A stretch of 58,368 nucleotides of DNA from IMG/VR virus record IMGVR_UViG_3300046171_000264, positions 1 through 58,368 of that record. One strand, given 5' to 3'. Of the stretch, positions 13,019 to 55,241 are shown piece after piece. Every line of letters begins with the position of its first letter. The first letter of the stretch is position 1. Under the pieces are notes generated by a model that was not told where the DNA came from, did no database searches, and saw only the letters and a list, made by a program, of their open reading frames with translations. Source of the stretch: a virus. The position numbers and the translations under genes are program-made.

Positions 13019-16000
13019 CAGTCTTGAATGCTCCAGTTACCAGCGGTGTCGAAGCCATCGGCTAGCTCAAGGATGTCTGAGCTGTTGGTTGGCATGTGCA
13101 CTGCGTCAATTGTAAACGTGCCCTCTTCAGTTGGCGTTATGCGCTCAATCTGGTAGGTGCGAACCTGTGTGCTGGGAAGCTTAACTGTGAATACAACTCC
13201 CGTAGGTGTCGCTGTCTTGCCGCTGTTGCTAACAACCAGCGTGGTGTCAGCTGGTGCTGTATCAGCGTCACCGTTCCAAGCAATTACGGCATAGGAACCG
13301 TCAGCTAATGATGTTGTACTGACCAATGCACCCTCAGGAGTTACGACTCCGTTATTGAACTCGTCGTACTCAGTAGCGTCCATCCCGACTTTGATGTAAT
13401 CGCCTGGTGCCATTGCCATCAAAACGCCTTCATGCGTCGTTGTAAACGAAACAGTATGAGTCGGGATGCGCCTCATCCTGATAACGAATTTTGCTGCATC
13501 AATGGCATGTTGTCGGCTGGTGCAATAGTCAGACATATCAATGGTTTCTAGAGATACCGTCTCGCTCGCTGATGATTCACGCACCAACACTTCGCGAACG
13601 GTCGGGAACATTCCTGGATTATCCAGGTTTGTGCTTGCGCGTTCTTCGCGGTAACGAACCGACACCTGGATCGGGTCGCGTTCTTCAGGATCAAAATACT
13701 GAAGCTTGAAGCTATTTTCGACGATATTGCCTGCAGTAAACAGGCCCGTGATTGCCACAGCATCGAACTGCAGAGCTGGACGCAGGAAAAACTTGCCGTC
13801 AGACTCGCCAAAAATTAACAGGTGTGTTGCTGCAACATCAGCGCACCATTGACGGATGTTAATCTTGTCAGCTATTACACCGTCAAAGAAATATTTGCGG
13901 GAGTAACACCAGTTAGCTGCAGCTGTAAACTCAGGGAAATTCACCATGTCGTCAGTAATTAAATCGCCTCTCCCATAGGTGCTGTTGGTCATTAAATCCA
14001 GCACAATATCTGGAAGCAAATGCGTTGCTCCTACAGCTAAGCTGCTTCGCAGTTGACGGCAGGTTTTACCGCCAGTCACGTAACAACTAAATTGATTGAA
14101 TTGTTGCCATTCCACTGACGAATTTATGTTGACGCCTACTAATGCGAGGTTGTCGTAATTTGCTTGAGTAGAGTTTGGTACTATCTCATTAATGTAAACA
14201 ATTTCATGTTCTGGCCCTGTCTCGGCAGAAGATGTAATTTCTTCATACACAAAACTTTCAGCCAATTTGCCCCAAGTGTCTATTAACGAAGTATCGCCGT
14301 TGCTGAAATCTGCATCTGTTTGTGGGTAGTTTAATTGCCCCTCAGCGGATGGTCTGCGGCCAATGCTGATCGCAAACGTGTCTGCACTTTTTGTGATTTG
14401 TATGCCTGTAAACAGCACGCTAATGCCACCTGTTTCCGAAACCAGTTGGGTAGTTCCAAATATGTAACTTGCGTCTAAAACGTATAAATTACTTGTTACA
14501 TGATTGCGAACTTCGTATCCCGTAAGCGGTTCAATCTGGAACTCCCATTGCTTGACGCTAGGCATATCAAGCTGAATGTAATTAAATATTTGTTGTGACG
14601 TTGCGCCCCGAATCCCGTATGCGTTATTTAGGCGGGTAAATGCTCCAGAAGTTCCGGCAACTCGATAGCTAATGTAGAAAAAACTATACCGTTCAGTAGT
14701 TGTTGAGACAAGGTTTGAAGAATGTATGTCAGTGTATAAAACCGTGCCTTCGTTTAAAATATTTCCTTTGTAATCCAAGCACGCGCGGTTATCGCACTCG
14801 TCATAACCTTTGGAAGTGTCAAAATTAGTTAGCCCGTTAATGCGTGTGCCTAAGGTAGATCTGATGCCAAACTCAACTGTTTTACACGGCCTTGTTGTTG
14901 ATACGCTTGCAATAGCACAACGCATAATATGGCCATCAGTTGTTGCGACATTACGAGGCTCAGGACCACTACCAGCAAGCAACTGGTTAAGCCATGTGTC
15001 GCCGTCTTTTTCTATTTGTGATTGACTATTTGTGGTAACGACTCCGGTACGGACTGTTTTGAATGTTGCCTCAACAGTTAGTGTCGCTCCGTCAACTTCA
15101 GACTTAAATGGTCCATTGGTTCTGTTAGTACAAATTGCCAATCCAGTACCAATTTTATACAACTCTCCTACAACAATAGAATCATCCCAGCTTTGTTGAC
15201 GGCCTGCGACGACAGAGGCAATGTCCTTGCATTTCTCGACATATGCGTCTTTAATAGAAAACCAACTTACAAAAGTGAATGAGTTGCTAGTCGTCCCTGG
15301 ACCCTGCCAAGTCGCAGTATTACGATCAAATTTAAACTTTGGATACACCTGAGATGTTGTAACGTCAAGCTGTGGAAACGTAACAGAAGTAAGAACAGTT
15401 GTCCCGTCAATGCTTGTTGTGCTTGTAGAAGGAGCTGTAAGCCCGATTTCTTGCTGGGTGTCGTCTTCTATAAGGATTTTGTGAAACTGAACTACTTTTA
15501 TGTCATCTTCGGGATCGTCAGCGGTAAGATCATTTTTAAATCTAAGCTTAAACTTACTTGCCTTGAGTAATTCAAGCTCTGTGTCAACTGCGTCGTTGTT
15601 ACTAATGCTGTCCAGACCGCTGCTATTAAAAGAAATATTCACGGCAATATATGCCTTATTTGATCCTCCTACGTTTGTGGGGTCAATTCTGGTAGTTCCC
15701 GGCCATGCAACAGTAACGCTATTGCCTACAACTACTGTAGTAATGCTTACACTCAGCCTGTTTAGAAGGCTTTGAGCTAAATTTTCAATGTTGCTGCTTT
15801 TGAAACGAGAAACAGCCTTTTTGTTGGAGCCCGATCCTGTATCAAACTGCTTTACATAACCCGCTGGAGTTTCTGCAGTAATTAGCTCTTTTTCGATTAC
15901 CCATGAACCTGTATTTGTAAGATCTTCAATGTCACGACTAAAAATAGTGTCCTTGTCACTTGAAGAAAAAAGCTTATAAGTGGTTGTGCCACCGATAGCT

Positions 16001-16638
16001 CCCAGCCCTGAAGACGTGATCCCGCTGCGCGATCCATAAAATGCTTGAGCCTTTTTGCGGCTTGCGTATTTTGCCTCGTCTAATACGCATTTAACTTCAG
16101 TCTTTCCCTCGTCGCCTTCAGGTAGCAGCTGTGCCCGTACCTGCGGCTCAAACGTCGGGTTAGGACGCATCCCAAAATCATTGCCGCAAAAAGCGTACAC
16201 ACCAAATGTTGTCTGGTTAGCTGGCTTCTGAGTCGCGGAAAAATGCTGAGTTATATTATTTCCGACACGAACGCCAAACACTTCTGAACCGGCTAAGTTG
16301 CTGCTATTTCCTATGTCTTCGCTTGCACTTCGCCCGTAAACGTGATCTCCTGGTGCAATACGAGTTGTAAGACCACTTGCATATCTTGCGTATACTGCCA
16401 TCCTCGAACCAATCTGGTTGGCAGTTGTATTGCCAAAGTCATAGCTAGTTAAAGTATTGCCACCAGACGCAAAATTGCTGGGCTCAATAGCGGCTATTGG
16501 TCCCTCACCGACCAGAAAGATCGCCCGTAGCATCTGCGATCCACCCAGGCTATAAATCTGCGACCAGAGCAGCTGCGTATTAACTCGAACGCCACCATAG
16601 ACAATAGGATGCAATCGTTTCTTTGTTTGTATAAACAA
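13018..16638 (-). CDS. Host-specificity/tail tip protein J-like, main 1206-aa frame
   Basis: This is a large tail-tip protein. The segment GGVRVNTQLLWSQIYSLGGSQ followed by AIFLVGEGPI is the characteristic early part of lambda J-like tip proteins. The body is beta-rich with a late region (EERDPIQVSVRYREER, then IRMRRIPTHTVSFTTTHEG) matching the conserved tip-hub domain. The apparent start at 16638 is artificial. The true N-terminus (MSSLLPSDKYLASML from ATG 17009) is upstream in two other frames, with one-base skips needed near 16715 and 16620-16640. It follows NlpC/P60 and gpL-like genes as in lambda. Confidence 0.8.
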   Translation of the reverse strand: MFIQTKKRLHPIVYGGVRVNTQLLWSQIYSLGGSQMLRAIFLVGEGPIAAIEPSNFASGGNTLTSYDFGNTTANQIGSRMAVYARYASGLTTRIAPGDHVYGRSASEDIGNSSNLAGSEVFGVRVGNNITQHFSATQKPANQTTFGVYAFCGNDFGMRPNPTFEPQVRAQLLPEGDEGKTEVKCVLDEAKYASRKKAQAFYGSRSGITSSGLGAIGGTTTYKLFSSSDKDTIFSRDIEDLTNTGSWVIEKELITAETPAGYVKQFDTGSGSNKKAVSRFKSSNIENLAQSLLNRLSVSITTVVVGNSVTVAWPGTTRIDPTNVGGSNKAYIAVNISFNSSGLDSISNNDAVDTELELLKASKFKLRFKNDLTADDPEDDIKVVQFHKILIEDDTQQEIGLTAPSTSTTSIDGTTVLTSVTFPQLDVTTSQVYPKFKFDRNTATWQGPGTTSNSFTFVSWFSIKDAYVEKCKDIASVVAGRQQSWDDSIVVGELYKIGTGLAICTNRTNGPFKSEVDGATLTVEATFKTVRTGVVTTNSQSQIEKDGDTWLNQLLAGSGPEPRNVATTDGHIMRCAIASVSTTRPCKTVEFGIRSTLGTRINGLTNFDTSKGYDECDNRACLDYKGNILNEGTVLYTDIHSSNLVSTTTERYSFFYISYRVAGTSGAFTRLNNAYGIRGATSQQIFNYIQLDMPSVKQWEFQIEPLTGYEVRNHVTSNLYVLDASYIFGTTQLVSETGGISVLFTGIQITKSADTFAISIGRRPSAEGQLNYPQTDADFSNGDTSLIDTWGKLAESFVYEEITSSAETGPEHEIVYINEIVPNSTQANYDNLALVGVNINSSVEWQQFNQFSCYVTGGKTCRQLRSSLAVGATHLLPDIVLDLMTNSTYGRGDLITDDMVNFPEFTAAANWCYSRKYFFDGVIADKINIRQWCADVAATHLLIFGESDGKFFLRPALQFDAVAITGLFTAGNIVENSFKLQYFDPEERDPIQVSVRYREERASTNLDNPGMFPTVREVLVRESSASETVSLETIDMSDYCTSRQHAIDAAKFVIRMRRIPTHTVSFTTTHEGVLMAMAPGDYIKVGMDATEYDEFNNGVVTPEGALVSTTSLADGSYAVIAWNGDADTAPADTTLVVSNSGKTATPTGVVFTVKLPSTQVRTYQIERITPTEEGTFTIDAVHMPTNSSDILELADGFDTAGNWSIQD

Positions 16639-17009
16639 GCGGAATAACTGATCCTAAAGTTGAAATCTCTTGCGTTGAATTGAAGCCGTATCTTGGTGCA
16701 TAGCGTTGGTTCTGTGTTGTTGTTTGGCCGCCGCTGCTTGTCGCCCTTAGTTCGGGTGGTCTGCCCTGGTTCGTTTTGATCAAATGACGGCTTGGGTCTT
16801 AGCAGCGTCGAAACAACAACAGTGCCGACGCCAATCACTAAATTAACGATTGCAATCGCTAAAGCAACATCAAAAGTCCCCGCCACTACGGCAGGTTCAG
16901 GAGCTTCTGCGCTGCGCTTTCGCACCTCAGCCTTAAACCAGGAATACTCCTCATCCGTTAGCCCCAGCATTGAGGCAAGATACTTATCAGATGGAAGTAG
17001 GCTGCTCAT
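16494..17009 (-). CDS. N-terminal piece of the J-like tip protein (frame-broken)
   Basis: ATG 17009 overlaps the stop of the NlpC/P60 gene as ATGA and starts MSSLLPSDKYLASML. A membrane-like helix (VALAIAIVNLVIGVGTVVVSTLL) and a basic KGDKQRR segment follow. Both are usual at the N-terminus of J-like proteins. From about 16715 the family sequence (NQRYAPRYGFNSTQEISTLG, VIPLVYTNKE) is in a second frame (about 16625-16715). It then moves to the frame of the main gene. The residues this frame encodes after about 16715 are therefore probably not natural. Confidence 0.65.
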   Translation of the reverse strand: MSSLLPSDKYLASMLGLTDEEYSWFKAEVRKRSAEAPEPAVVAGTFDVALAIAIVNLVIGVGTVVVSTLLRPKPSFDQNEPGQTTRTKGDKQRRPNNNTEPTLCTKIRLQFNARDFNFRISYSACLYKQRNDCILLSMVAFELIRSCSGRRFIAWVDRRCYGRSFWSVRDQ

Positions 17010-28544: not shown

Positions 28545-29810
28545 TTACTTGGTGGCGGTGAGGGGACGTTTCCAAGCCTCAACCTGCTTGGCCCGGTAGG
28601 CAGAAACAGGGTCGGCGGCACCGCGACCGGCACCTTTCAGTGCGTTACGAAGAACGTTGGTGCTGTCTTCGCGGTCAGCGGAGTCCTGATTGATGGTTTC
28701 GCTCTCGGAGTCCTCTTCCTCTTCGTCGTGTTCCTCTGCGGAATCAACGTGAGCAGCGAGGATGCCTTCGACCACGCCTTGGATGTAGGCGGGCTCGGCG
28801 TCTTCGCGAGGTGCGGAACCGGTCAGGTTCTCGTAAGCCTGGGTGTAGAGCGTGGCGTCGTCGATGCCGTCGAACGTGAAGTCCTCGGCAAAAGCGGGAG
28901 CCAGACGCTGCAGGGTATCCAGGCGCGCCGCGACGAGCTGGTCGAGCTCGGCGGTATCGATGCGCGGGGTGTCGGAAGACGCGAGCTCTTCTTCAAGAGC
29001 GTCGGCACGACCTTCGGCGGCTTCTTTTTCGAGAGCCAGGGAATCGAAGTCGGCCTGCAGAGAATCAAGCTTGTTGGAAAGCTCATCGCGCTCGGTGGCG
29101 AAAGCCTCCAGCTGGCGCCCCATGTCCCGGGAGTAGGACTGGACCGCACTAGCTGTTTCTGCGGGCAAATCGATCTCCAGGCCGTCGAGTTTGACGGTTG
29201 CCATAACGGGAGATGCAGTTGAACTGGACTGGGGCGCCATTTCTTGCTCGGTGGGGTTGGCTACAGCATCAGCTGCATCCATACGATCAAGCAAGAGTCG
29301 AACCTCCGGGCCAGCCCGGCCGCGGGGGACGATGGCGATGTGGTTCACACGGATGTTGCGCTGAACGCCGGCATACTCTTCGCCCTCAGGGGTAACCCCG
29401 GGGGTCGGGTCGAAATCGACCTTGTAACCGGCAGATACCTGGCTGGCATCCTTTCTCTTGATCTTTTCAATTGCTTCGTCGTCTGTGACAAGGAGCGCAA
29501 CTTCTACAAAACCATCGTTGTACCTAACTTGACTACCGGAATAGCCAACTTGGAACTTCTTAGTGTTTAGAGAATCGAGAAGAACAGGAGGGTGACCCCA
29601 CGTTGCGGGTTTCATCCCGAACGTAGATAAAGAATCCGGGTTACTGACCTCTTCAGGAGGTCGGTACTCGCGGACCTGGGAACCATCAGCACGACGATAG
29701 AGTTGTGTACCTACACGGGCGGCGCGGGACCACACTCGGAGATAACCCTCCGGTGTGATCTCGCTTCCCGTTATGGGCGCAAAATCGTATCGGGTTACTG
29801 ATGTTTCCAT
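28545..29810 (-). CDS. DUF2213 prohead protease fused to scaffold, 421 aa
   Basis: The N-terminal 200 residues carry the DUF2213 pattern: TPEGYLRVWSRAARVGTQLY, then WGHPPVLL, KKFQVGYSGSQVRYNDGFVE, SAGYKVDF and VNHIAIVPRGRAG. These proteins are phage maturation proteases. From about residue 215 the chain becomes an acidic coiled coil (ATERDELSNKLDSLQADFDS and following) that would act as the scaffold. A fused protease-scaffold is common in siphophages. Confidence 0.85.
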   Translation of the reverse strand: METSVTRYDFAPITGSEITPEGYLRVWSRAARVGTQLYRRADGSQVREYRPPEEVSNPDSLSTFGMKPATWGHPPVLLDSLNTKKFQVGYSGSQVRYNDGFVEVALLVTDDEAIEKIKRKDASQVSAGYKVDFDPTPGVTPEGEEYAGVQRNIRVNHIAIVPRGRAGPEVRLLLDRMDAADAVANPTEQEMAPQSSSTASPVMATVKLDGLEIDLPAETASAVQSYSRDMGRQLEAFATERDELSNKLDSLQADFDSLALEKEAAEGRADALEEELASSDTPRIDTAELDQLVAARLDTLQRLAPAFAEDFTFDGIDDATLYTQAYENLTGSAPREDAEPAYIQGVVEGILAAHVDSAEEHDEEEEDSESETINQDSADREDSTNVLRNALKGAGRGAADPVSAYRAKQVEAWKRPLTATK

Positions 29811-31356: not shown

Positions 31357-32211
31357 TCAATCCTCATCGCGGCGGCTGGTCTTCCCCGAGCACTTCCATT
31401 TCGTCCTCGAGAGGCAGAGCGGTGTATTGCGGTCCTTGCCAGCGCAGTTTTTGTTGTGGGACTTCATATCGCCAAAGCTGCGGGCGCAGTAGCGGTCACC
31501 TTTGGCAGTGCCTGGGGCGATCTTGTACCCCTTGGCACCGTAGCGGACAGTACGAGTGCGGCCGGTCGTGGGGTTGCGGACCTTCTTGCTGTATTTCTTG
31601 CCGTCTTTAGTGTCACGGCGCGTCGGGAGCTGCAGCTGGACCGGCGCGTAATATTGAATGAGGCTGTCACGGCGCGGCTTACGGTAGCCAGGTTCATAGC
31701 GGCGGCGGAGTTTCTCCACGGTGAGTCGGTGAGAACGCACGCCACTGCGGAGGGAGGCGCGCCCGGCTTTGCCTGCGGCATACATGGCCTGACCAACAGC
31801 CATGCCGCGTTCGATCTCAGATTGAGCTGCCCTGCGCATGGCCTTCTCAGCTTTCACATTGGCGGAGCGCGCGGCCCGGCCAAGGCGCTCGGTCTTGGAA
31901 AGAGGTCTGATCTGCTCAAAAGCACCAAGGGTCAGCCGCATCGAGGGTTTCCGAGCTGTAGCCCGGTGCACAACCTCTGTTACGTCGCGCTGCGCCGCCC
32001 GTCGCATCGTTGTGGGACTGGTGAGAATTGCTTTGCGACTGCCTTTGTGTAGAAGGGCCGCGCCCACAACGCCGGCAGTCAGCCCGACTGCAGCAGCTTG
32101 GCCTCCCGAGCCCGCTCCTGTTTTGCGGCATGTCTTGGCAGGGGCGATGTGGCTCTGCCCGCAGGGGCGGCCCTTGCTATCAGCACGGAGTAAGGCTGAA
32201 GTAATAGTCAT
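31357..32211 (-). CDS. Basic virion protein with PCG-SHI-CRK module, 284 aa
   Basis: The protein starts with a cysteine module (GRPCGQSHIAPAKTCRKTG), then a Gly/Ala hydrophobic segment (AAAVGLTAGVVGAALL), a long Arg/Ala-rich helical region, and a C-terminal Cys-containing domain (GDRYCARSFGDMKSHNKNC, then CLSRTKWKCSG). The same N-terminal module occurs inside the 1161-residue neighbour. Charge and position suggest a DNA-associated or ejected head protein. No enzyme motif is recognised. Confidence 0.65.
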   Translation of the reverse strand: MTITSALLRADSKGRPCGQSHIAPAKTCRKTGAGSGGQAAAVGLTAGVVGAALLHKGSRKAILTSPTTMRRAAQRDVTEVVHRATARKPSMRLTLGAFEQIRPLSKTERLGRAARSANVKAEKAMRRAAQSEIERGMAVGQAMYAAGKAGRASLRSGVRSHRLTVEKLRRRYEPGYRKPRRDSLIQYYAPVQLQLPTRRDTKDGKKYSKKVRNPTTGRTRTVRYGAKGYKIAPGTAKGDRYCARSFGDMKSHNKNCAGKDRNTPLCLSRTKWKCSGKTSRRDED

Positions 32212-32221
32212 GGTGAAAGTG

Positions 32222-32662
32222 CTACTGGTGAAAGCCCACTGCCCAAGTGTCGGCCTTGGAGCTCACCATCACCGGGGCGCCGCTGCGCTCCTTGCGAGGG
32301 TCTTCGCGCCGCTTGCGGGAGACCAGGCGGCGGCGTTCAGCGGGGGAAAGCGACATGGCCTTGGCGGCTGGTAGGCATTTAGGCTTACCTTCACCCTTGG
32401 AGCGGTCACCGCAGGGGCCGAGGATCCGGCCGCTGCTGCTCATGCGGACCCATTTCTCCTTGAACCACTTGTCCAGACCGTCATTGCGGAACTTGCCGCC
32501 GCGCTTTTTGTACTCGCGCACCATCCAGGCGTTGGCGTACGCACTCGGGTAGATCTTGAACTTGCGCTTGGCCGCGGCTTTTACCGCGGCGTGGAGCTCT
32601 TTGTTGACGAAGATGGTTTTGCCGGTTGCATCACTGTGAAGTGAGGCAGGAGTCAGAGTCAT
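32222..32662 (-). CDS. DUF5872-like protein, 146 aa
   Basis: The pattern YPSAYANAWMVREYKKRGGK, then LDKWFKEKWVRMSSSG and GPCGDRSKGEGKPKCLPAAK, matches the DUF5872 family. That family occurs in phages and giant viruses. It is basic and has a conserved Cys pair. The role is unknown; a packaged nucleic-acid-binding protein is plausible from composition. Its stop lies 10 bases before the next start. Confidence 0.72.
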   Translation of the reverse strand: MTLTPASLHSDATGKTIFVNKELHAAVKAAAKRKFKIYPSAYANAWMVREYKKRGGKFRNDGLDKWFKEKWVRMSSSGRILGPCGDRSKGEGKPKCLPAAKAMSLSPAERRRLVSRKRREDPRKERSGAPVMVSSKADTWAVGFHQ

Positions 32663-33555
32663 GGTTCAAAACCCTCAGCCCAGATGGAGTCACGACGAGA
32701 GGGACGGATGGCAGAAGGTTTACGGAAAGCGCGTTCCAGAGACCTACGACGACGACGAGTTTGCAGCGCTGTGCGACCCCTACGCAGTCCGCTGGCTATT
32801 TCACCAGTCTTAGCTTCGCGAAGCATTGTGGCTGCACCAACAGACAGTGCCGCGTTGGCAAGTATTTGTTTGCTTTCTTTCTTAAGGCCCATACCACGTG
32901 CCCCGGCTGCAGTTAATGCCTGCCCAGCTCCTGCAATTTGGAAAGCACGGGCTGCTCCAGCAGTATCACCACTGAGTGATTTACCTAGTCCGACGCCAGT
33001 GGCACCAGCTTGAAGGGCTAGCCCCCCGAGAACAGCACCGCTTGACGCTGCTTGTCTCAGTCCCGATTTGGGCTTCTTAGGCCTGACTTTGGTAGCAGGG
33101 CCTTTAGTACACTTTTCACCCTCGGAAATGGCACCTTTACCGCACTTCAGGTCGTTGCGAGCTTCAGCGACGTCCAACCGAGCTCGGATGTAGGTCGCGC
33201 CGCGGTCCTGGATACCCATCTCACAGGCGGTCAGGTATTCCTGCGGAGTGAGGGAGTCGCTGCGCTTACGCATAGATCCGCAGCTGCCGTCGCACTTGCG
33301 GCCTTTTTTCTTACCGCAGCCGCACTCGGCATCCATGGGCTTCTTGCCATACATGTCGCCATCCATGGGCTTCTTCATGCCGTAGCCGTCGGCGGCCGGT
33401 TTGCGCCGCTTACGAGAGTGGCCGGGCTTCATGCCCATGTCCATCTCCTCTTCCTCAGTAGGCTTATTACCGCGGGAGCGTTTGGCCATCGCCATGCCCT
33501 CGCGGATGCCCTTCTCGTAGGCTTTTGGCTTGGAGCGGCGGGCGGCGGCAGGCAT
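32659..33555 (-). CDS. Lys/Cys-rich virion protein with KCGKGAIS module, 298 aa
   Basis: The N-terminal 100 residues are extremely basic, with a Cys cluster (DAECGCGKKKGRKCDGSCGS) that could bind metal. A domain around SLTPQEYLTACEMGIQDRGA follows, then the module DLKCGKGAISEGEKCTKGPA with a Lys/Pro linker and a long Gly/Ala hydrophobic stretch. The end is Arg-rich. The KCGKGAIS module recurs in the 1161-residue protein encoded upstream. It overlaps the DUF5872-like gene start by four bases. Function is unknown. Confidence 0.65.
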   Translation of the reverse strand: MPAAARRSKPKAYEKGIREGMAMAKRSRGNKPTEEEEMDMGMKPGHSRKRRKPAADGYGMKKPMDGDMYGKKPMDAECGCGKKKGRKCDGSCGSMRKRSDSLTPQEYLTACEMGIQDRGATYIRARLDVAEARNDLKCGKGAISEGEKCTKGPATKVRPKKPKSGLRQAASSGAVLGGLALQAGATGVGLGKSLSGDTAGAARAFQIAGAGQALTAAGARGMGLKKESKQILANAALSVGAATMLREAKTGEIASGLRRGRTALQTRRRRRSLERAFRKPSAIRPSRRDSIWAEGFEP

Positions 33556-33599: not shown

Positions 33600-34469
33600 T
33601 TATTGCGTATCAAAAGGTTGCGGGGCTAACTGCTCAAATACTGCAGCTCTGTTGAGATCAGCGGGGCCTACAGTTGCCACTTTCGTCACTTCTTCACGGT
33701 GGCGCCGAGGTAACGCAGCGTAGGTGTCATCAATTGCTGCGATCTCGGGATCCCAGGGAGCTAGATAACATCGACACCTCGGATGGCAAGGAGCTTTTGC
33801 AATGACACGCTTGTAGATACGACCAGCGCGGGCATTACAGATAGGACACGTACGGTCATCACTGGTGGCGTACCACATCACTAAGTCAATTCCATTCACT
33901 GCGTAATACTGACTGCTGGCGCTGTTGTAAGCACGCAGTGATTCTGTGCGGGCAATAACATCAGCGCGAGATTTGACTACACCAAGCCGAAGACGCAGAT
34001 CCTTTGTAATAGCATCCGTAGGACGACCTTCTGCCACACCTTGTGCAACGAGTTCGGTGGCAGTCTCTGCGAAGGTCTGACCGTGACGCCGGAGGTATCC
34101 CTTTGACTGGGCCGCGGCGGCGACGGTTGCTTCGATAGGGATCGAGACGTCGATGCGCCGGCGAGAGGGAGTGAGCTCACGCATGGAGTCGCTCGCCACG
34201 CCGATGCCCTTCTGGTGGGAGCTACGGAGCAGGCCACGTAGAACTCGGTCGTAGGCGTCCGTACGCTGCGGGTTGAACGCAGGCACAAGCTGGCGAAACT
34301 CTTGCAGCAGAGCCACATTGCGATCCGCGGCAGGCTTGCCACTGCGAATCTGGATGCGGGTGCGGCGGATTAAACGGTTGAAGCTGCGGTCGAGAATACG
34401 ATTGAGCTGAGTGACTGTGACGTCCTCGGAGCGGCGGAGGGCGGCGTTGTAGCGCTCAAAGAGTTGCAT
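33600..34469 (-). CDS. SPP1 gp7-like minor head protein, 289 aa
   Basis: This is a head morphogenesis protein bound to the portal and probably ejected with DNA. The diagnostic C-terminal part is SRADVIARTESLRAYNSASS, then a zinc-binding set: DDRTCPICNARAG followed by APCHPRCRCYLAPW. The N-terminal half is helical. Its start shares one base with the stop of the upstream kinase-bearing gene, so the two are co-translated. Confidence 0.86.
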   Translation of the reverse strand: MQLFERYNAALRRSEDVTVTQLNRILDRSFNRLIRRTRIQIRSGKPAADRNVALLQEFRQLVPAFNPQRTDAYDRVLRGLLRSSHQKGIGVASDSMRELTPSRRRIDVSIPIEATVAAAAQSKGYLRRHGQTFAETATELVAQGVAEGRPTDAITKDLRLRLGVVKSRADVIARTESLRAYNSASSQYYAVNGIDLVMWYATSDDRTCPICNARAGRIYKRVIAKAPCHPRCRCYLAPWDPEIAAIDDTYAALPRRHREEVTKVATVGPADLNRAAVFEQLAPQPFDTQ

Positions 34470-37400
34470 TAGGAGGCACGACGTAAGTCTTTGCGCACTG
34501 CTTCGTGGAACTCCAGCAGGTCTTTTTGGTTAAGCGCTTTGCCTTGACTGATCTTGGTCTGTAGTGCCTTTCTGCGGTTTGTCATAGCTGTGAAAAGAGG
34601 AGCATTAGTGTCTTTTGCGGCACTTATCAAGTTATTTATATCAGAGATGCCGTTCTTAGTCACAGGTCCGGCAGTGCCGAAATCAATCAGTTTTATGTCG
34701 TTGCCTTTAGTTAGAACATTTCCCATGTGAAGATCACCATGGGAGTAACCGAGCCTGTGCATCTTTTCTACTTCGCGTAGTGCGCTTTGAACCGCTATGC
34801 CTTGCTGTTTCGGTGTAAGTGACTTAACAGTATTGTAGTTTTTTAGATAATCCATTATTACTACGCCTTTCTTAGGATCAGCGTTGTATATTTTGGGAAC
34901 GCTTATACCCGCAGCATGCAACGCATTCTGCGTATTTACTTCGTTAGCGAACGCTCCTTTGTTTACTTTGCCTTTTGGGGTCTTAATTACATACTTCTCG
35001 TCTTGTGAGATCCAGGTGCGACCGCTAACGCCCTCAGTGAGGTATGTGGCTCCCTGAGGGGGGTTGTTCTTGTCGAACGGCTTCGCGTTATTGCGTATGC
35101 GTTGGGCAGCTGGCGTCCATTTTGGAGCGGTGATCGCCAGGGCAGTGCCACCAATAGCAGCAGCAGCCAGTGCTAAGCGCTTAGTGCGTTTACCTGTTTG
35201 CGGCGCACCCGTGTTTACTTTAGTTGCTGGGCCGACATGGCACTTTTCGCCTTTAGAGATAGCGCCTTTGCCACACTTGAGATCAACACGGGTATCAGCT
35301 GAGTCGCCGCGAATGAGTTTGGCGACATAATCGGCTTGCTCATCTGGGATTTCAGTGAGTTTACCCATGTTTTTAAGTGCCCACATATTCCCACCGCGAA
35401 CACCCTTAAGCTCTTTAAAGCCGAACTTCCTGTAAATAGCATTACGCTTGTTGCCTAAACCATCATCTTTATATGGGTTGTTGAATAAAACTGCATTTTC
35501 AGGCATTTCATTGAGCTGCGCTTTAAACATAGACTTAACTTGCTTTGCAACACCTAATCCCTGTGCTCTGCTAAGCCCTTCTTTCTGATCAAAACTTAGA
35601 TCCGTTTGAAACGCGATACCAAACTTGTCAAAAGAACCCGCTTTACCACTAGGGGTAGATACAAATGTGACAAGTGTGTCATCGACAGCCCCGACACTCA
35701 TGACATGCCCGGTTTGAGGATTTTTAAATGTACTGAAATTATTAGTAGGATCTACTTTTGTCAGCTTAAGACCTTGAGCGTCTGCGGCGACAACAGCCAA
35801 ACCTACTTTGGCTTTACCTAATAGTTTACTGGCCGGTCCTTGGTATTTTTCAGGAAGCTTACTAATCGTGTCCCTAACTTTTTTAGAAGACATCTTCTGT
35901 ATTCCAGTGTTGATATGTTTTGCCGAGGTTTTGTACAAAGGTATATTCTGCCTATTTTTAAACGCCGCCCTTCCGCCTACAACAGCCGCTCCTGTAATAG
36001 CCGCGGCTCCTGCAGCAAGCGCCAGTTTCTTACCGCGGCTGCTGGACTTAGAGGATTTACTTTTAGAAGCAGAGTTTCCGCTTGCTGTTTTTCTGCACTC
36101 ATGCGCCTTCGGAATGTGCGAGGCCCCACAGGGCTTTCCCCGCAAGTCCGCCCTTACAGCTAAGTACGCATCAATGCGCGCTTGTTGGAGCTCATCTTTC
36201 CGCATGCGCTTCAAAGCGGCCTCGGCAGCTTCGCGGGTGGCGTACCGAGGTGTCCCATCCTTGTTCTTCTGTCGCATCAAATCAGCAATACGCTGAGCAT
36301 TAGAGCGCCGACGAGCGGGGCGGTCTGGCTTCTCTGGTGAAGGTGTGCTTGACCGGACTCGGGTTTGAGAGCTTCGCAGAGTGGTCAAACGTTCAAAGCC
36401 ATTGCTCCGCAAATAGTCAGCCGCAGGAGCTGTAGTGCTGAAGCTGCGCCCTGAGAGCTCGGATGCTGCGAGCCGGATCTCTCGATCTGTGGCTGTGAAC
36501 GTAGGGCTACCAATGACCTTGCTGGAGTAGTACTCCTTAGCTACCAAATCACTAAGGCCCTGCCCCATCTTGGTTCCGACTGCTTCAGGCTTGTTCAAGC
36601 TCTTGGCTAAATAGCGCGATTGCCCGATACGTGCGCTAGTCAACAGCTCGCTGTAACCAGCTTTGCGTGACTCAGCTGAAAGCGCGGCACCCGCAGGTTG
36701 ACGAACTTCATCAGCGATTCTTCCGAAATATCGGTCAAAACCATCACGAGTATCTCTGTAAAACGTGTCTGCAAGCTGCTTACGGCTGACTGCAGTCGAT
36801 CGACCTCTGGGGGCATCTCCGATAATCCTGTCGAGGTTGCTGACTGCACGCGCTCGGGCCTCATCGGAGAAATTAGCTGTGCCAGGTCCTACAACCCGAT
36901 TTAAAAACGCATTGCGAGAATCAGCATCTTTAAGATTTACACCTTCTTGTCGCGCTAACGCTTGTAAGTTAAACGCTTCACGGTTTAGTGCAGTAGCAAC
37001 AGAGCGCCGTACAGCTGTAGCATCATCACCTTTTTTAAGTTTAAAGCCAAACTGACGAGATAAATACTGATTTGTAGCTGGCTCGGAAAAAGTACTTCCA
37101 TCACCTGCGCCCCCCGCGTTAGTACGAGTAGCTCCCCAAAAAGTTTCTAGGTTTTTCTGCCTCCACGTAGAAGCATTCATATTCAACTCTTTAGCTTCAA
37201 TATCTAACGCTTTTATCTTATTCTCTAGTACTTTTGCATTTCCATACTCTGTTGCGCGACGTTCTAGCTGAGTAGGCGTACTAAGTAAGGCACCTCGCAT
37301 AGCCTCAGGGCCTCTAGCCGATTCTCCTGCTGCTCTAGCTACTACCTCACCGGCAGCAGAACTACCAGCAGCACGTCGCTCTGCCCTCGCTCTACGAATT

Positions 37401-37954
37401 ACAGGAGTTGCATCCAGTACACGATTAATCCCAGCCGCTACCGCGTCATCGATCTGTCGACCCACTCCATCTCGGTAGAAGGATGCTCGCTTCAGTTGAT
37501 TGTGACTGAATAAACCAAAGCCAACAACTGCAAGACCAGCAGCGATTCCTCCAGCACGACGCTCAAGATCAGCCTGCAGTTTCTTCTTGCGTTGGATGTC
37601 ACCAGGAGTGGCTTTCACAACCCCGCGAACGATGGCACGCTTGCCACCTTCGATCTCAGAAAAGCTCCCTTTACGCACACCTTTAGATATACGCTTAACC
37701 CCACGCTCAATGTTGGCCAACCCACTAATTGGATCTGTACGAACTGCCCTGAGATGTGAATCCGGGCCTTTACCTTTTAACCGGCAATCCCAGTTTGGAG
37801 GAATGCACCGGCCACCACACTTCACATTGGGCGGTGTGCACGTCACCTGACGTCTAGTCTTGCCAGAGCGGCTCCGCGCAGCATCCATCCGGGCCTTGGT
37901 TTCCAGGTACGCCGCGGTGCGAAAACCTTGAGGTGTGATGTTGGGTTGTGTCAT
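34469..37954 (-). CDS. 1161-aa multidomain protein with C-terminal kinase-like domain
   Basis: A large, probably virion-carried protein. In order: a cysteine motif near residues 40-60 (CTPPNVKCGGRCIPPNWDC); a hydrophobic segment; and a long helical region to about 600. Then come the module GKPCGASHIPKAHECRK with a TM-like stretch (LALAAGAAAITGAAVVGG), and an acetyltransferase-like segment (GLGVAKQVKSMFKAQL, then RNAIYRKFGFKEL). Next are the module DLKCGKGAISKGEKC with another TM-like stretch, and a protein-kinase-like domain from about 974. The kinase shows YVIKTPKG (K991), a Glu at 1005, HGDLHMGNVL (D1074, N1079) and LIDFG (D1091). All catalytic positions are present. The resemblance is to small RIO/Bud32/APH-like kinases. 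Substrate is unknown. Confidence 0.75.
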   Translation of the reverse strand: MTQPNITPQGFRTAAYLETKARMDAARSRSGKTRRQVTCTPPNVKCGGRCIPPNWDCRLKGKGPDSHLRAVRTDPISGLANIERGVKRISKGVRKGSFSEIEGGKRAIVRGVVKATPGDIQRKKKLQADLERRAGGIAAGLAVVGFGLFSHNQLKRASFYRDGVGRQIDDAVAAGINRVLDATPVIRRARAERRAAGSSAAGEVVARAAGESARGPEAMRGALLSTPTQLERRATEYGNAKVLENKIKALDIEAKELNMNASTWRQKNLETFWGATRTNAGGAGDGSTFSEPATNQYLSRQFGFKLKKGDDATAVRRSVATALNREAFNLQALARQEGVNLKDADSRNAFLNRVVGPGTANFSDEARARAVSNLDRIIGDAPRGRSTAVSRKQLADTFYRDTRDGFDRYFGRIADEVRQPAGAALSAESRKAGYSELLTSARIGQSRYLAKSLNKPEAVGTKMGQGLSDLVAKEYYSSKVIGSPTFTATDREIRLAASELSGRSFSTTAPAADYLRSNGFERLTTLRSSQTRVRSSTPSPEKPDRPARRRSNAQRIADLMRQKNKDGTPRYATREAAEAALKRMRKDELQQARIDAYLAVRADLRGKPCGASHIPKAHECRKTASGNSASKSKSSKSSSRGKKLALAAGAAAITGAAVVGGRAAFKNRQNIPLYKTSAKHINTGIQKMSSKKVRDTISKLPEKYQGPASKLLGKAKVGLAVVAADAQGLKLTKVDPTNNFSTFKNPQTGHVMSVGAVDDTLVTFVSTPSGKAGSFDKFGIAFQTDLSFDQKEGLSRAQGLGVAKQVKSMFKAQLNEMPENAVLFNNPYKDDGLGNKRNAIYRKFGFKELKGVRGGNMWALKNMGKLTEIPDEQADYVAKLIRGDSADTRVDLKCGKGAISKGEKCHVGPATKVNTGAPQTGKRTKRLALAAAAIGGTALAITAPKWTPAAQRIRNNAKPFDKNNPPQGATYLTEGVSGRTWISQDEKYVIKTPKGKVNKGAFANEVNTQNALHAAGISVPKIYNADPKKGVVIMDYLKNYNTVKSLTPKQQGIAVQSALREVEKMHRLGYSHGDLHMGNVLTKGNDIKLIDFGTAGPVTKNGISDINNLISAAKDTNAPLFTAMTNRRKALQTKISQGKALNQKDLLEFHEAVRKDLRRAS

Positions 37955-37957
37955 CGA

Positions 37958-39805
37958 TCAGTACCCTTCGTTGTAGGCCCGGAAAGCATCGGCCTCGTTA
38001 TCGGGCACCGGTGAAAGCCCTACTACATTCTGCCCGGGAAACAGTTTCTGCACCGCAGCCCTTGCAGCGCGGAGTGCGTTGAATCCTGTGGTGTAAGGGC
38101 CGTCCGTAATAGCACTATCAAGGCTGAAGCGCGCTCGGTAAAGCTTCCGTGCTCGAGTGCGGTGGGGTCCAATGATCAGGATCGGAGCTGCAGAGCCACT
38201 ATCGATGCGCTGCCCGTCAGGGCCGACAAGCGGGCCAGCGACGACATCATCAACACGATGGGTGATACGAATGCGGAGTCCTTCAGCGGAATCGAAGTGC
38301 GTGTCCCCGCGGTTGGGCGGCAAGATGCCTTGCTCCCCGCGGTTGGGCGGCAAGATGCCTTGCTCCCCGTCCTCGGAAGCTGTCGGCCGCTCAGCTGCGG
38401 CTTCAGCTGGCTGCACCGCTTGCTTCTGCGCTTGGTAGCCGGCCATCTGCGATTGGAATTGAGCGTCCGCGGAGATAGCGAGCCGCTCGGTGATCACTTC
38501 ATTGAGTTTTGTATCGATGCTGTAATCTGTGCCGCTGAAGCGGGACTCACGGACCTCTAGAGCGTTGAGCACCCCATATTGCAGGTACTGAATGTCGGAA
38601 GCTGCCGTGAGCTGTCTCAGCTCGGCCTTCTCCTTGTCGGTCTGCGTAAAGACCGAGGGAAACTGGACCGACCAGGACTCGGGGACACGGCCTCGGGTTG
38701 GTCCTTCGCTCGAGGCCAGGATGTAATTGAAGACTTCTGTGATAGGCGTGCGGCAGTAAACCTCTTGCCACTGCTCCACCAATGAGGCCCACATGCGCTC
38801 CTCGAAGCGGCCTTCCTTACCCAAGCCACCAGGGCTGTCGCCCATCAGGATGGAAGCCGGCCAACCCGTGGAAGCCTGCAGATCCTTCACGAAGGGGTCC
38901 GTAGCCGTAGCGATATTGCTCAGTGCTCGGTTGAGGAAGCTCAGTTCCTCTTCGGTGTCGACCACCATGCCGCCATAGAGGCTACGGCTGAGGCTGTTGG
39001 CCTCCAGCCGTTTGCGCAGGTCGCTTTCGTGGCCAGCGGCGATACGGTTGAAAAGCCCGGGGATCTTGTGTACGAACAGGTCGGCATCCGACGCCATAGC
39101 TTCGAGGCCTGATATTGCGGTCTCATAGCGTTTGAATGATTCCCAGATCAGCTGCAGCACAGACTGTCCCCACCCTGTGTTGCGGGAGCGCATGTTCCAT
39201 GGCAGGTACAGACCGTCGAAGCGGGCTACGCGAGAGCTGTGCACGCGAATATTGACGTAGCCGCTGGTCTGCTCTGGCGTGATGCGCTGACTGGTGGTGA
39301 TCCGGTAGTGCGAAGGACGGGAGTAGTCCGTAATGGAGAAGTCTTCGGGGATCAGTTCGTGCCGCGAAAGCGGGATATACCCGCGCACTCCGCGGATGCG
39401 CTTGTTTTCGACCGGGTCCTCAGGCTGCCCACCGTCATCGACGAGCAGGACCAGGCCGGCGCCTCCATAAAGGCGTTGCAGCTTAACAACCTCAGAAAGT
39501 GCGAAGTGAAACTGTGTTGTCTGGAGATATTGATTAAACGAGGCGCGCAAGTCAGCACTATCGGCCGCTGCGTCCCCACCTAAAGAGATGGTAGGTACAT
39601 GACGCAGGATCTCGTCACTGATGGCATCAACGTAGCGACGTGGGATGCCACTGGTGTATAGAGATTCGAGTTCAGCTTCAGTAAGAAGCGTGTTAAAGCG
39701 TACGTTTGTGCTAACTGTTTTGTCTTTCTTAGCTACGCCTAAACCTGTAAGTGCATTAATTAACGCACCATCATTCCGGTAGTCTTCTGATGTTGAATTG
39801 GCCAT
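37958..39805 (-). CDS. Portal protein (DUF1073 type) with C-terminal extension, 615 aa
   Basis: The dodecameric portal core spans about residues 30-460: SGIPRRYVDAISDEILRHVP, RLYGGAGLVLLVDDGG, STGWPASILMGDSPGGLG and RTPITEVFNYILASSEGPTR are typical of DUF1073 portals. After residue 470 comes a Glu/Ala linker, two perfect copies of GEQGILPPNR, then a basic C-terminal domain (GPHRTRARKLYRARFSLDSA). That last domain is not part of the core. It follows terminase and precedes the minor head genes, as expected. Confidence 0.9.
   Translation of the reverse strand: MANSTSEDYRNDGALINALTGLGVAKKDKTVSTNVRFNTLLTEAELESLYTSGIPRRYVDAISDEILRHVPTISLGGDAAADSADLRASFNQYLQTTQFHFALSEVVKLQRLYGGAGLVLLVDDGGQPEDPVENKRIRGVRGYIPLSRHELIPEDFSITDYSRPSHYRITTSQRITPEQTSGYVNIRVHSSRVARFDGLYLPWNMRSRNTGWGQSVLQLIWESFKRYETAISGLEAMASDADLFVHKIPGLFNRIAAGHESDLRKRLEANSLSRSLYGGMVVDTEEELSFLNRALSNIATATDPFVKDLQASTGWPASILMGDSPGGLGKEGRFEERMWASLVEQWQEVYCRTPITEVFNYILASSEGPTRGRVPESWSVQFPSVFTQTDKEKAELRQLTAASDIQYLQYGVLNALEVRESRFSGTDYSIDTKLNEVITERLAISADAQFQSQMAGYQAQKQAVQPAEAAAERPTASEDGEQGILPPNRGEQGILPPNRGDTHFDSAEGLRIRITHRVDDVVAGPLVGPDGQRIDSGSAAPILIIGPHRTRARKLYRARFSLDSAITDGPYTTGFNALRAARAAVQKLFPGQNVVGLSPVPDNEADAFRAYNEGY
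38305..38364. repeat. Perfect 30-bp tandem duplication inside the portal gene
   Basis: Two identical 30-base units, 38305-38334 and 38335-38364, encode a doubled ten-residue linker (GEQGILPPNR). A third partial unit (five bases) follows. Exact identity points to a recent duplication or slippage. Confidence 0.95.
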
Positions 39806-42421: not shown

Positions 42422-42611
42422 GCTCTGCCTGGTCGATGGCGACTAAATACCGGATGCGTTCTTGATAGAGCCCGGTGTAAAGGCCGTTGGTACGCCCGCT
42501 GTTGATGTAAAGGCGGTGGATGTAGTCAGCGCGGGCTTGCTGCTCATGTGGATTTAGTGCTGGATGCATGCTGAAAGGTACTCCGTGGTCATGGCGTGAT
42601 TCTTTTGTCAT
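42393..42611 (-). CDS. Small helical protein downstream of thyX, 72 aa
   Basis: ATG 42611 overlaps the thyX stop (ATGA), which decides this start over the longer frame from 42704. The sequence HEQQARADYIHRLYINSGRT, then GLYTGLYQERIRYLVAIDQA, is a helical hairpin. Function is unknown. Translational coupling to thyX suggests stoichiometric expression. Confidence 0.65.
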   Translation of the reverse strand: MTKESRHDHGVPFSMHPALNPHEQQARADYIHRLYINSGRTNGLYTGLYQERIRYLVAIDQAEHAAASSSSK

Positions 42612-43345
42612 GGCGCTAAACGAGCTTTGCCCCAGCGATTTTTTGTGTACCAGTCGTGAACTGGCGCGATCCACTCTGCGAAATGCGGCATCATCAACTG
42701 GCACATCTGATGAATTTCTATCTGCGCATCCGCCTTGCCCCGCAGGTCGAGGAAGTGCATAAGGCTGCGCAGGTTGAACGTTACGACAAAATGCTGTCGG
42801 TAATCAAACGGCAGCACTCCTCTAGCGTGCTCCTCCGAAATACCAGCATCTAGCGCCTCTTTATAACGCCGAGCAGAGTCCTCGCAGTGCTGCAGATCCT
42901 TGGCCCGTAGCCGCTCGTCGTATGTGTATCGCTTGCCCTGGCGATTGGTGTAATCACCAACAGGTCGCAGGTAGAACGCCTCTTCGACATCAACAATGCC
43001 CTCAGCCACAGCAGCGATTCGCTGGCCGGTGTAGCGCATGGACTGAACGTCCCAGCTGGTGCCCACCCTGTGAGTCCGAGCTTGTTGGATTACCGAGTGA
43101 GGGAAATAGCCAACAGCAAATGTGATACTGGCGTGTTCCAGTGGGCCGTAATGGCCGCGACCTCCCAAAAGCAGGTGCTTTACGATTCGATCACCAGCTT
43201 CTGACTCGATCCGTAGTTGGTCAAAACACCGTTCAAGAAAAATCCAAGACTCTGAATAGTCCTGGTGCATGGCCTGCCAGCAAAGCGTGGCTGGCTCCCT
43301 GGTCTGGCTTAAAACGCCAACCTGAAAGCGCGGGTCAATTTGCAT
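42608..43345 (-). CDS. thyX: Flavin-dependent thymidylate synthase, 245 aa
   Basis: The enzyme converts dUMP to dTMP using FAD and methylene-folate. The ThyX motif is present as RTHRVGTSWDVQSMRYTGQ (R-H-R...S...S-R-Y pattern), followed by a C-terminal segment NLRSLMHFLDLRGKADAQIE that positions the substrate. Relatives are common in cyanobacteria and cyanophages. It works with the dCTP deaminase and dNMP kinase also encoded here. Confidence 0.94.
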   Translation of the reverse strand: MQIDPRFQVGVLSQTREPATLCWQAMHQDYSESWIFLERCFDQLRIESEAGDRIVKHLLLGGRGHYGPLEHASITFAVGYFPHSVIQQARTHRVGTSWDVQSMRYTGQRIAAVAEGIVDVEEAFYLRPVGDYTNRQGKRYTYDERLRAKDLQHCEDSARRYKEALDAGISEEHARGVLPFDYRQHFVVTFNLRSLMHFLDLRGKADAQIEIHQMCQLMMPHFAEWIAPVHDWYTKNRWGKARLAP

Positions 43346-43743: not shown

Positions 43744-43919
43744 TATTTTTCAAATGCAAGGCAAATAGATTGGGCAAGAATGTTGTCGTAAAGACGCCCA
43801 CATGCTTGCCATTTTTGAGGTATCCACCAAACACCAATAATCACCGCAGCGACCATAAGGGCAATCATCTCCCAAACAGGTAGTTTGGCAGAATTGTTTT
43901 TAGTTTTGCAATCAGTCAT
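43743..43919 (-). CDS. Small membrane protein, 58 aa
   Basis: ATG 43919 overlaps the upstream TGA (ATGA), and the TAA overlaps the next ATG by one base. The product has one transmembrane helix (WEMIALMVAAVIIGVWWIP, residues 16-34) and a short Cys-containing tail. It could be an inner membrane modifier, but there is no family evidence. Confidence 0.65.
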   Translation of the reverse strand: MTDCKTKNNSAKLPVWEMIALMVAAVIIGVWWIPQKWQACGRLYDNILAQSICLAFEK

Positions 43920-44731
43920 GAATTTTCCTCCAGTGTGATTGGGGCTTCCTTGATCAGCTTCAGCAAAGTGTCTCGCTGTCTCCGTCGCGCAAGGATGGGG
44001 TCGCCGTCGGCTAGTGCGGTGGCTTGGAAAGCGCGGGCGGCGAAGGTGGCGGAGTCGGCGGCCAGTTCGGCGGCCAGTTCGGCGTAGTTGGTGGCTAGTG
44101 CGGCGTCGTCGGCCCAGTCAGCGCAGGCAGCGGCGGCGTAGGCGGACCAGGCAGCGGCGGAGTCGGCGTGGGCGGCCCAGGCAGCGGTGGCGGCGTCGGC
44201 GGCGGAGGCCCTGGTAATGGCGTAGGCGTAGGCGGCGGCGGCTTTTGACGCGGACTCGGCTTCGTGAGCAGGCCATCCTAATCCGTTGGCTAATCGATCC
44301 ATCCCTGCGATAACAGGGGCGACAACAGCCTGGGTTTCAGCGAGAACAGTAGGCAGTGCTCGCAACTCTGCAGCAAGGAATTTCCACCCGATGCGGCTGA
44401 GGTCTTTCCCGTTGCATTCAATAGCGCCCAGTAATGCAGCCAAGAACTCAGGAGCTTCGCCCGGAGGTAGCCCTTCAAAAATTGATTCAGCGATGCGGCT
44501 GATCATTCGTGGGATCCCATATTCCCGCTCGATGCATGCGGGGTTGTCCACCCCGCCAGAAAGACAATCGATAAAGCAGGTTAAGTAACCCCCCTGCTCG
44601 ACACGAACAGCTTCAACGTGGCGCTGGACTTCAGCTTTCAGTTGGTGAAAATTCTTAGTGATCATTAGCTGTTCTCCTGTGGGCGCATTGCTTTTCTTAG
44701 GTTGTTGATCATTAGCTGGTGGGTGAGTCAC
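43916..44731 (-). CDS. Ala-rich repeat protein, 271 aa
   Basis: The first 150 residues form an ordinary acidic helical domain (IPRMISRIAESIFEGLPPGE, then APEFLAALLGAIECNGKD). Residues about 160-240 are an alanine/aspartate/tryptophan repeat (AAWAAHADSAAAWSAYAAAA pattern), likely a helical solenoid, as seen in various phage proteins. ATG 44731 overlaps the upstream TGA. Function is unknown. Confidence 0.65.
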   Translation of the reverse strand: MTHPPANDQQPKKSNAPTGEQLMITKNFHQLKAEVQRHVEAVRVEQGGYLTCFIDCLSGGVDNPACIEREYGIPRMISRIAESIFEGLPPGEAPEFLAALLGAIECNGKDLSRIGWKFLAAELRALPTVLAETQAVVAPVIAGMDRLANGLGWPAHEAESASKAAAAYAYAITRASAADAATAAWAAHADSAAAWSAYAAAACADWADDAALATNYAELAAELAADSATFAARAFQATALADGDPILARRRQRDTLLKLIKEAPITLEENS

Positions 44732-54368: not shown

Positions 54369-55241
54369 TTAATCTTTAACAAGATTGCTATCATCGCATA
54401 GTCTTACACGCAGCTTACGGATTGACTTAGCATATATAGCGGAAGCTTTGTGGCGAGTGATCCCGAGTTCAGTAGATAATTCTTTAAGGGATTTGTTGTC
54501 AAAGAAATAACCGATCATCAGAGTGCGAGCGACGGGCTCCAGGGTGTCGAGTGCGACCTCGAGCTTCTCATCGCGCTCGGTGATCAGGGCGGCTAGCTCC
54601 GGGGACTCGAAACCGCTCGGATCGGGCGACGTCAACACTTGGTCTATCGAGCTGTCACTAAAGCGAGATAGCGCGTCAAGGGACAAACAATGAGCAGCGT
54701 CACAATTACTCAGCACGTCTCGGATGCGAGTAATTGATAATTTTGTCACTTTTGCTAAGTCTTGCACGGTAGGGTGTTCACCCGTCTTAGAATTGTATTC
54801 TGTTACTGCTCGCTGGATCGTGCGCATATCGTCCTGGACATTTATAGGTATGCGAATTGTTTGAGCTGTGTTGTAGATAGCGCGGGATATTGATTGACGG
54901 ATCCACCAATAGCTGTAAGTACTAAAGCTGTAGCCACGTGCAGGATCAAATAGCTCTAGACTACGCAGTAAACCTAAGTTACCTTCTTGAATTAGATCAC
55001 CTAAATCCAGTCCACGTTGTGTGTACTTCTTCGCAATGCTTATGACTAAACGAGCATTGGTCTCTACCATAAGACGCATAGATCGCTGACCACGCAGCTT
55101 GACACTGTGTGTTGCGTGCTTACGGCCTCCGGGCCAGTCAACGTACTCGCGGATACGTCGACAATGGTGGAGTTGTGCTTCTTTTGTTAGTACAGGGAAC
55201 CGCGTAATACTGTGCATATACGCGTCTAGCTCAGATGCCAT
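54369..55241 (-). CDS. Sigma-70 family factor (cyanobacterial group 2-like), 290 aa
   Basis: It directs host RNA polymerase to phage promoters. Region 2 is complete: LVISIAKKYTQRGLDLGDLI, then QEGNLGLLRSLELFDPARGY and SFSTYSYWWIRQSISRAIYN. Region 3 (YNSKTGEHPTVQDLAKVTKL) and region 4 (LKELSTELGITRHKASAIYA, the -35 reading helix) follow. Region 1.1 is missing, as in group 2 sigmas. No phage RNA polymerase is found, so this is probably the main switch for middle or late genes. A near copy of part of its region 2 coding sequence lies just upstream of its start. Confidence 0.92.
   Translation of the reverse strand: MASELDAYMHSITRFPVLTKEAQLHHCRRIREYVDWPGGRKHATHSVKLRGQRSMRLMVETNARLVISIAKKYTQRGLDLGDLIQEGNLGLLRSLELFDPARGYSFSTYSYWWIRQSISRAIYNTAQTIRIPINVQDDMRTIQRAVTEYNSKTGEHPTVQDLAKVTKLSITRIRDVLSNCDAAHCLSLDALSRFSDSSIDQVLTSPDPSGFESPELAALITERDEKLEVALDTLEPVARTLMIGYFFDNKSLKELSTELGITRHKASAIYAKSIRKLRVRLCDDSNLVKD

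Follow-up and report, generated by a model that had tools for sequence, protein, structure and literature searches.

What a large protein with a kinase-like domain at its end would be doing among the head genes of a phage is the question raised by the gene P0001, found in a stretch of viral DNA of 58,368 nucleotides (IMG/VR record IMGVR_UViG_3300046171_000264), here called the window. P0001 (positions 34469-37954; ATG at 37954, stop at 34469) encodes a modular virion-region protein of 1161 amino acids, its reading frame intact and uninterrupted across 1161 codons. Like the other genes of the head block and all of its own features described below, it is on the minus strand. It is directly flanked by the genes for a portal protein (37958-39805; Pfam PF06381, E 2e-53) and for a minor head protein of the MuF or SPP1 gp7-like type (33600-34469; PF04233 and TIGR01641, E 1.4e-20), and these matches bear out the position between portal and gp7-like genes proposed in a first-pass annotation of this DNA. 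The MuF domain PF04233 was not found in P0001 itself in a Pfam scan; it belongs to the adjoining gene. In 29 loci the gene order is kept as TerS, TerL, portal, P0001-like gene, MuF, one to four small genes carrying the sequence tag described below, a DUF2213 protein, g206 and the major capsid protein (MCP). The nearest named portal is that of cyanophage S-CBS4 (34%) and the nearest named TerL proteins are those of Cylindrospermopsis and Nodularia phages (29-32%). Since these relatives are from cyanophages, a cyanobacterial host is likely for the virus encoding P0001.

The P0001 family and its modules

The family is defined by a conserved N-terminal region (residues 1-560; 36275-37954), which in an alignment of 35 sequences contains an invariant four-cysteine knuckle, C39-x6-C46-G-x-R-C-I-P-P-x-W-x-C57 (37784-37840). 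None of the 35 members has a Pfam match in this region, and PHROGs and NCBIfam were likewise empty. The region is encoded on at least 160 IMG/VR contigs. In tblastn searches with P0001 and with the module-less protein of locus L054, the family was absent from 50,697 named phage records, a downstream kinase protein had no match among named phages, and a scan of GTDB genomes with the N-terminal alignment gave 82 pattern matches of which none was confirmed. No description of the family or of its CGxxxIxxxxxC tag was found in the literature searched, which took in few subscription papers. On these grounds P0001 appears to belong to a previously undescribed family. All its relatives are metagenomic contigs, in which sequencing errors and fragments are possible, and loci read more than once from a contig were de-duplicated by protein sequence and not by contig.

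Behind the N-terminal region there are between zero and two exchangeable C-terminal modules, which may be kinase, GNAT-like, LRAT/NlpC-P60, HExxH metallopeptidase-like or of unknown type. The 83 distinct complete proteins fall into 10 architectures: 24 end in a GNAT-like module, 23 end in an LRAT-type module, 12 have no module and 10, like P0001, have a GNAT-like module followed by a kinase, while the remainder combine these modules with two further types. Counts made with HMMs extending over the tag region called LRAT too often and were not used. Because 12 of the 83 carry no module, the N-terminal region would have a function of its own, perhaps a purely structural one. The LRAT/NlpC-P60 module matches Pfam LRAT (E 2.5e-8 and 2.5e-7), and a simple pattern search of it did not find the LRAT catalytic motif. 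The HExxH module is found at the same exchangeable position in the P0001-like proteins of L015, L129 and L061, in two of the three as HELGHAxH, and with its HExxHxxH pattern it is a putative zinc metallopeptidase.

The first of the two modules in P0001 (residues 720-890; 35285-35797) is of uncertain identity. It had been noted in the first-pass annotation as a GNAT-like segment, and our alignment shows it to be a conserved module present in many relatives of P0001. Its predicted structure is moderately confident (pLDDT 83), and its neighbours in a Foldseek search of the PDB are headed by ICL2 of M. tuberculosis, including structures with acetyl-CoA, together with several GNATs (E 0.01-0.1, TM approximately 0.3-0.4). 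Pfam gave no match in 25 members, a sequence-profile search of the PDB gave nothing credible and the best matches in a fold search of BFVD were uncharacterised phage proteins only. The acetyl-CoA motif R/Q-x-x-G-x-G/A is not conserved among 25 relatives, and the RxxGxG of P0001 is not kept. The module is conserved and at most weakly GNAT-like.

The kinase module

The second module (residues 965-1161; 34472-35062) is Bud32/RIO-like by Pfam, alignment and AlphaFold2 model. That the protein ends in a domain with all the catalytic positions of small protein kinases had been read from the DNA at the outset, and this is confirmed: K991, E1005, D1074, N1079 and D1091 stand where that reading put them, and H1072, a glycine loop (G975-x-x-G978) and a DFG motif are present as well. 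Among 24 aligned relatives from other contigs, in which identity in the domain drops to approximately 22%, H1072, D1074, N1079, D1091 and G1093 (of DFG) never vary, and K991 and E1005 are kept in at least 90%. In a Pfam scan of the whole of P0001, RIO1 (E 3.5e-9) and ABC1 (E 4.5e-8) are both over their gathering cut-offs, as is APH when the domain is scanned alone, and the APH, Kdo, ABC1 and Pkinase profiles match 24 of the 24 members. The kinase-domain signal is far beyond chance. NCBIfam gives a Bud32 match with an E of 5e-14; assignment as the Bud32 (KEOPS) equivalog was rejected, TIGR03724 scoring 52.2 bits against a trusted cut-off of 125. A profile made from the kinase alignment finds protein kinases from across the PDB, with PRPK/TP53RK among the top ones and an annotated non-specific serine/threonine kinase as the best.

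AlphaFold2 prediction of this region from the same alignment, a check suggested by the first-pass annotation, gave a confident bilobal kinase fold (pLDDT 93.6, pTM 0.87), in which the N-lobe has five strands and the short C-lobe three helices. The top Foldseek match is human PRPK (E 1.3e-9, probability 1.00, TM 0.62, in a loose superposition with an rmsd of approximately 7), followed by archaeal Rio2 and Kae1-Bud32. The geometry of the ATP pocket was judged from this fold match and from residue conservation. The module appears to be under purifying selection, with dN/dS values of approximately 0.06-0.16 against relatives at a dS near saturation. Conservation, predicted fold and dN/dS lead us to consider the C-terminal domain of P0001 a conserved and probably active kinase-fold enzyme.

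Folds of the RIO/APH type also cover small-molecule kinases and ATPases, and the domain may be a phosphotransferase of this sort (Kdo, APH, UbiB or Bud32-like) or an ATPase, not a protein kinase. The matches of the APH, Kdo and ABC1 profiles in every member would be in keeping with this, as would the closest structural match, to Bud32, which acts largely as an ATPase in KEOPS. We nevertheless consider it somewhat unlikely, as RIO1 is the best Pfam match of P0001 and the best PDB sequence match is annotated as a serine/threonine kinase.

Tags and cassette exchange in the head block

Each module carries an RxD element, a spacer and a tag of the form CGxxxIxxxxxC, usually followed by an Ala/Gly-rich hydrophobic segment. 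In the first module of P0001 the RxD element is R601-A-D603 (36146-36154), a possible processing site; the tag, CGASHIPKAHEC, spans C609-C620 (36095-36130) and the hydrophobic segment approximately residues 644-661 (35972-36025). In the kinase module R889-V-D891 just precedes the tag CGKGAISKGEKC (C894-C905; 35240-35275), and the segment is at approximately residues 927-943 (35126-35176). Each of the 83 proteins has as many tags as modules. An RxD lies no more than 32 amino acids upstream of 361 of 371 tags (the upstream frequency being 96%, against 5.6% in background windows), and a hydrophobic stretch follows within 80 residues of the tag in 83%, against 8% in background windows.

Within genomes the tag is confined to the head-gene block. 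In the window its matches in real genes are only in P0001 and two neighbours; in 12 records (approximately 645 kb) the 33 matches all fall on one strand and within a single short stretch of each record, while a reversed control pattern had no match in the same records. When all IMG/VR contigs were scanned with the strict tag, every assignable coding match was on a contig of the P0001 lineage.

The tag is also where modules are exchanged. From before the portal gene through to codon 620, which encodes the tag's second cysteine, the DNA of the window and of locus L016 is 99.6% identical; beyond this there is no comparable identity until codon 1161, where it resumes at 99.8%. With L015 (98.6%) the break is at codon 622 and the resumption at 1162. 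In near-identical phages, then, the exchange of modules starts precisely at the tag and the sequences come together again at the stop codon. L005 and L006 have no kinase module at all, the stretch between codons 882 and 1161 being absent, and the kinase module of L022 is 82% identical to that of the window although its N-terminal region is just 39% identical. These differences reflect recent cassette exchanges at the tag, and a search for homologues carrying a different effector domain in this position, also suggested in the first-pass annotation, has found many, with clean swapping of cassettes.

Such exchange raises the possibility that the tag is a mere leftover of recombination, a shared patch of homology and not a functional targeting or folding element. 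As this would predict, the breaks coincide exactly with the tag, whose DNA recurs within genes as well as between them, but the tag is kept at the protein level across relatives that are less than 40% identical, with RxD upstream and the hydrophobic segment downstream, and it is also present in genes that form single modules, so that we find this explanation improbable. The tag may serve in loading, form a disulphide hairpin or act as a folding cap, and it may partly be a recombination patch.

The two tagged neighbours are cargo-type genes encoding proteins of 298 amino acids (32659-33555; tag CGKGAISEGEKC at 33109-33144) and 284 amino acids (31357-32211; tag CGQSHIAPAKTC at 32128-32163). Between them is a gene for a DUF5872 protein (32222-32662) with a looser cysteine pair. 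A frequent ending of cargo genes is RRDS and then WAxGF or YAxGF, as in the C-terminal RRDSIWAEGFEP of the 298-residue protein and SKADTWAVGFHQ of the DUF5872 protein, and this ending is possibly a C-terminal binding or processing signal. In the 284-residue protein, residues 203-281 share 67-71% identity with short proteins from cyanophage S-TIM5 and from a Roseobacter phage, and its C-terminal 80 amino acids form a small, shared, basic, cysteine-containing domain. Other tagged genes of the block encode further kinases of the same superfamily; in L048 a cargo protein (13585-16773) has two kinase domains (residues 82-283 and 764-951), several tags and a g284-like part. A J domain with an intact HPD is found in tagged cargo-type genes of L030 (12623-13441), L048 (12710-13588) and L095 (10414-11214), and by their sequence these head-block proteins may recruit host Hsp70. 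Outside this group of genes, the window encodes what we take to be a primary-type sigma-70 family factor (54369-55241), close to the packaging genes, presumably a flavin-dependent, ThyX-like thymidylate synthase (42608-43345) and a very Ala-rich, repeat-like protein with no NCBIfam match (43916-44731).

Downstream of the tagged genes is the DUF2213 protein (28545-29810), a putative prohead protease with a scaffold-like C-terminal part. Immediately after its DUF2213 domain it reads RMDA (residue 176), which is conserved in 23 of 24. That RxD is a site for the prohead (maturation) protease agrees with this but remains a lead only, because RxD is also present at other conserved positions in g421 and inside portal, MuF and MCP.

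Proposed head-carried effectors and known systems

We propose, with a probability of roughly 0.6, that P0001 is a modular head cargo, whose interchangeable effectors are packaged in the head and ejected with the DNA, the kinase then acting on the host. We favour a head-carried effector because a constant carrier encoded in the head block is combined with exchangeable enzyme domains, of kinds known for modifying host proteins, that have no fixed role in assembly. The conserved N-terminal region would associate with the head or portal, and each C-terminal module would be a self-contained cassette of RxD, tag, linker with hydrophobic segment and effector domain. P0001 would be assembled into the virion and leave it together with the DNA, which would allow the effector to work inside the host from the outset of infection. 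The last effector here would be a small, active Bud32/RIO/ABC1-type kinase with host molecules as its substrates. Related phages would exchange effector modules by recombination at the tag, the arsenal changing while the head scaffold stays constant. It is also conceivable, and we suggest it tentatively, that a lineage of tailed phages uses RxD, tag and hydrophobic segment together as a general loading or delivery signal for interchangeable cassettes (kinases, J-domain proteins, metallopeptidases and LRAT-like hydrolases), a phage-head counterpart of a secretion signal, with possible release at RxD by the prohead protease.

The tagged proteins could also be expressed late without being packaged, or act in assembly. 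P0001 may be packaged and its kinase act in the assembling head, or on phage proteins (scaffold, MuF or capsid), to regulate maturation, instead of on host proteins. Its place in the head-assembly block beside the portal, MuF and DUF2213 genes is what this would lead one to expect, yet the modules are dispensable and are swapped for unrelated activities between phages whose portal and MuF are approximately 99% identical. It is difficult to square this with a fixed role in assembly, and the LRAT-, J-domain- and peptidase-like alternatives point to varied targets; we regard a role in assembly as quite unlikely. Less likely still is that the modules are superinfection-exclusion or anti-competitor effectors, expressed late or delivered against rival phages or cells, since, although a constant N-terminus, variable C-terminus and standalone downstream cassettes resemble polymorphic toxins, an unsystematic look at the loci revealed no immunity-gene pattern and the absence of relatives from GTDB genomes gives no hint of the prophages in which MuF toxins usually occur.

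Few ejected phage effectors are known, T4 Alt and the MuF toxins among them, and to our knowledge a mark of head cargo can rarely be read from the sequence of a protein. What is new here is an undescribed family, a tag and the swapping of modules at that tag. A compact tag that matches exchangeable effector modules one for one and occurs only in the head block makes the question of loading directly testable, and with it one can search for new effectors that act at the very beginning of infection. If head-borne, a kinase and a J-domain protein would suggest that such phages act on host phosphorylation and Hsp70 before phage gene expression.

The kinase of P0001 is closest in fold and sequence to the atypical kinases Bud32/PRPK and RIO, and differs from Bud32 in falling far below the equivalog cut-off and in being fused to a virion-region carrier. 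The T7 protein gp0.7 is likewise a phage kinase, but it is made after infection and is not a head-region protein, whereas P0001 is encoded in the head region. T4 Alt is a precedent for a head-carried enzyme; P0001 is a different enzyme, and we know of no modular cassettes or cysteine tag in Alt. In the parts of the account of Iyer et al. (2017, PMC5512222) available to us, gp0.7 is cited as phosphorylating host proteins and Alt is described as a packaged, protein-modifying ADP-ribosyltransferase that is ejected with the DNA. The same parts describe polyvalent proteins as multidomain, combining kinase, GNAT and peptidase domains; their genes lie close to those for virion proteins, injection is proposed and recombination of cassettes is suggested, and their kinases belong to a single clade, marked by loss of the C-lobe and by an insertion between H and D (PMC5512222). 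P0001 is similar in that a single polypeptide, encoded among virion genes, carries several domains of effector type, and to this extent only the suggestion in the first-pass annotation that it is a polyvalent effector holds. Its kinase, however, is not placed in the polyvalent clade, as it has a plain HGD without an insert, keeps three C-lobe helices in the model and matches Bud32/RIO, and we found no mention of the N-terminal family or of the CGxxxIxxxxxC tag in those parts of PMC5512222. Nor is P0001 a MuF fusion. MuF polymorphic toxins, in the portion of PMC12226406 available to us, have a constant head-associated N-terminus and a variable C-terminal enzyme, with delivery from the head proposed. 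P0001 shares the constant N-terminus encoded in the head block and the variable C-terminal enzyme, but it is without PF04233, MuF being a separate adjoining gene, its carrier N-terminus is a new family and no prophage context was found. As far as these sources extend, P0001 is concordant with the general proposal of delivery made for polyvalent proteins and MuF fusions (PMC5512222), but with another carrier, another type of kinase and a distinct tag.
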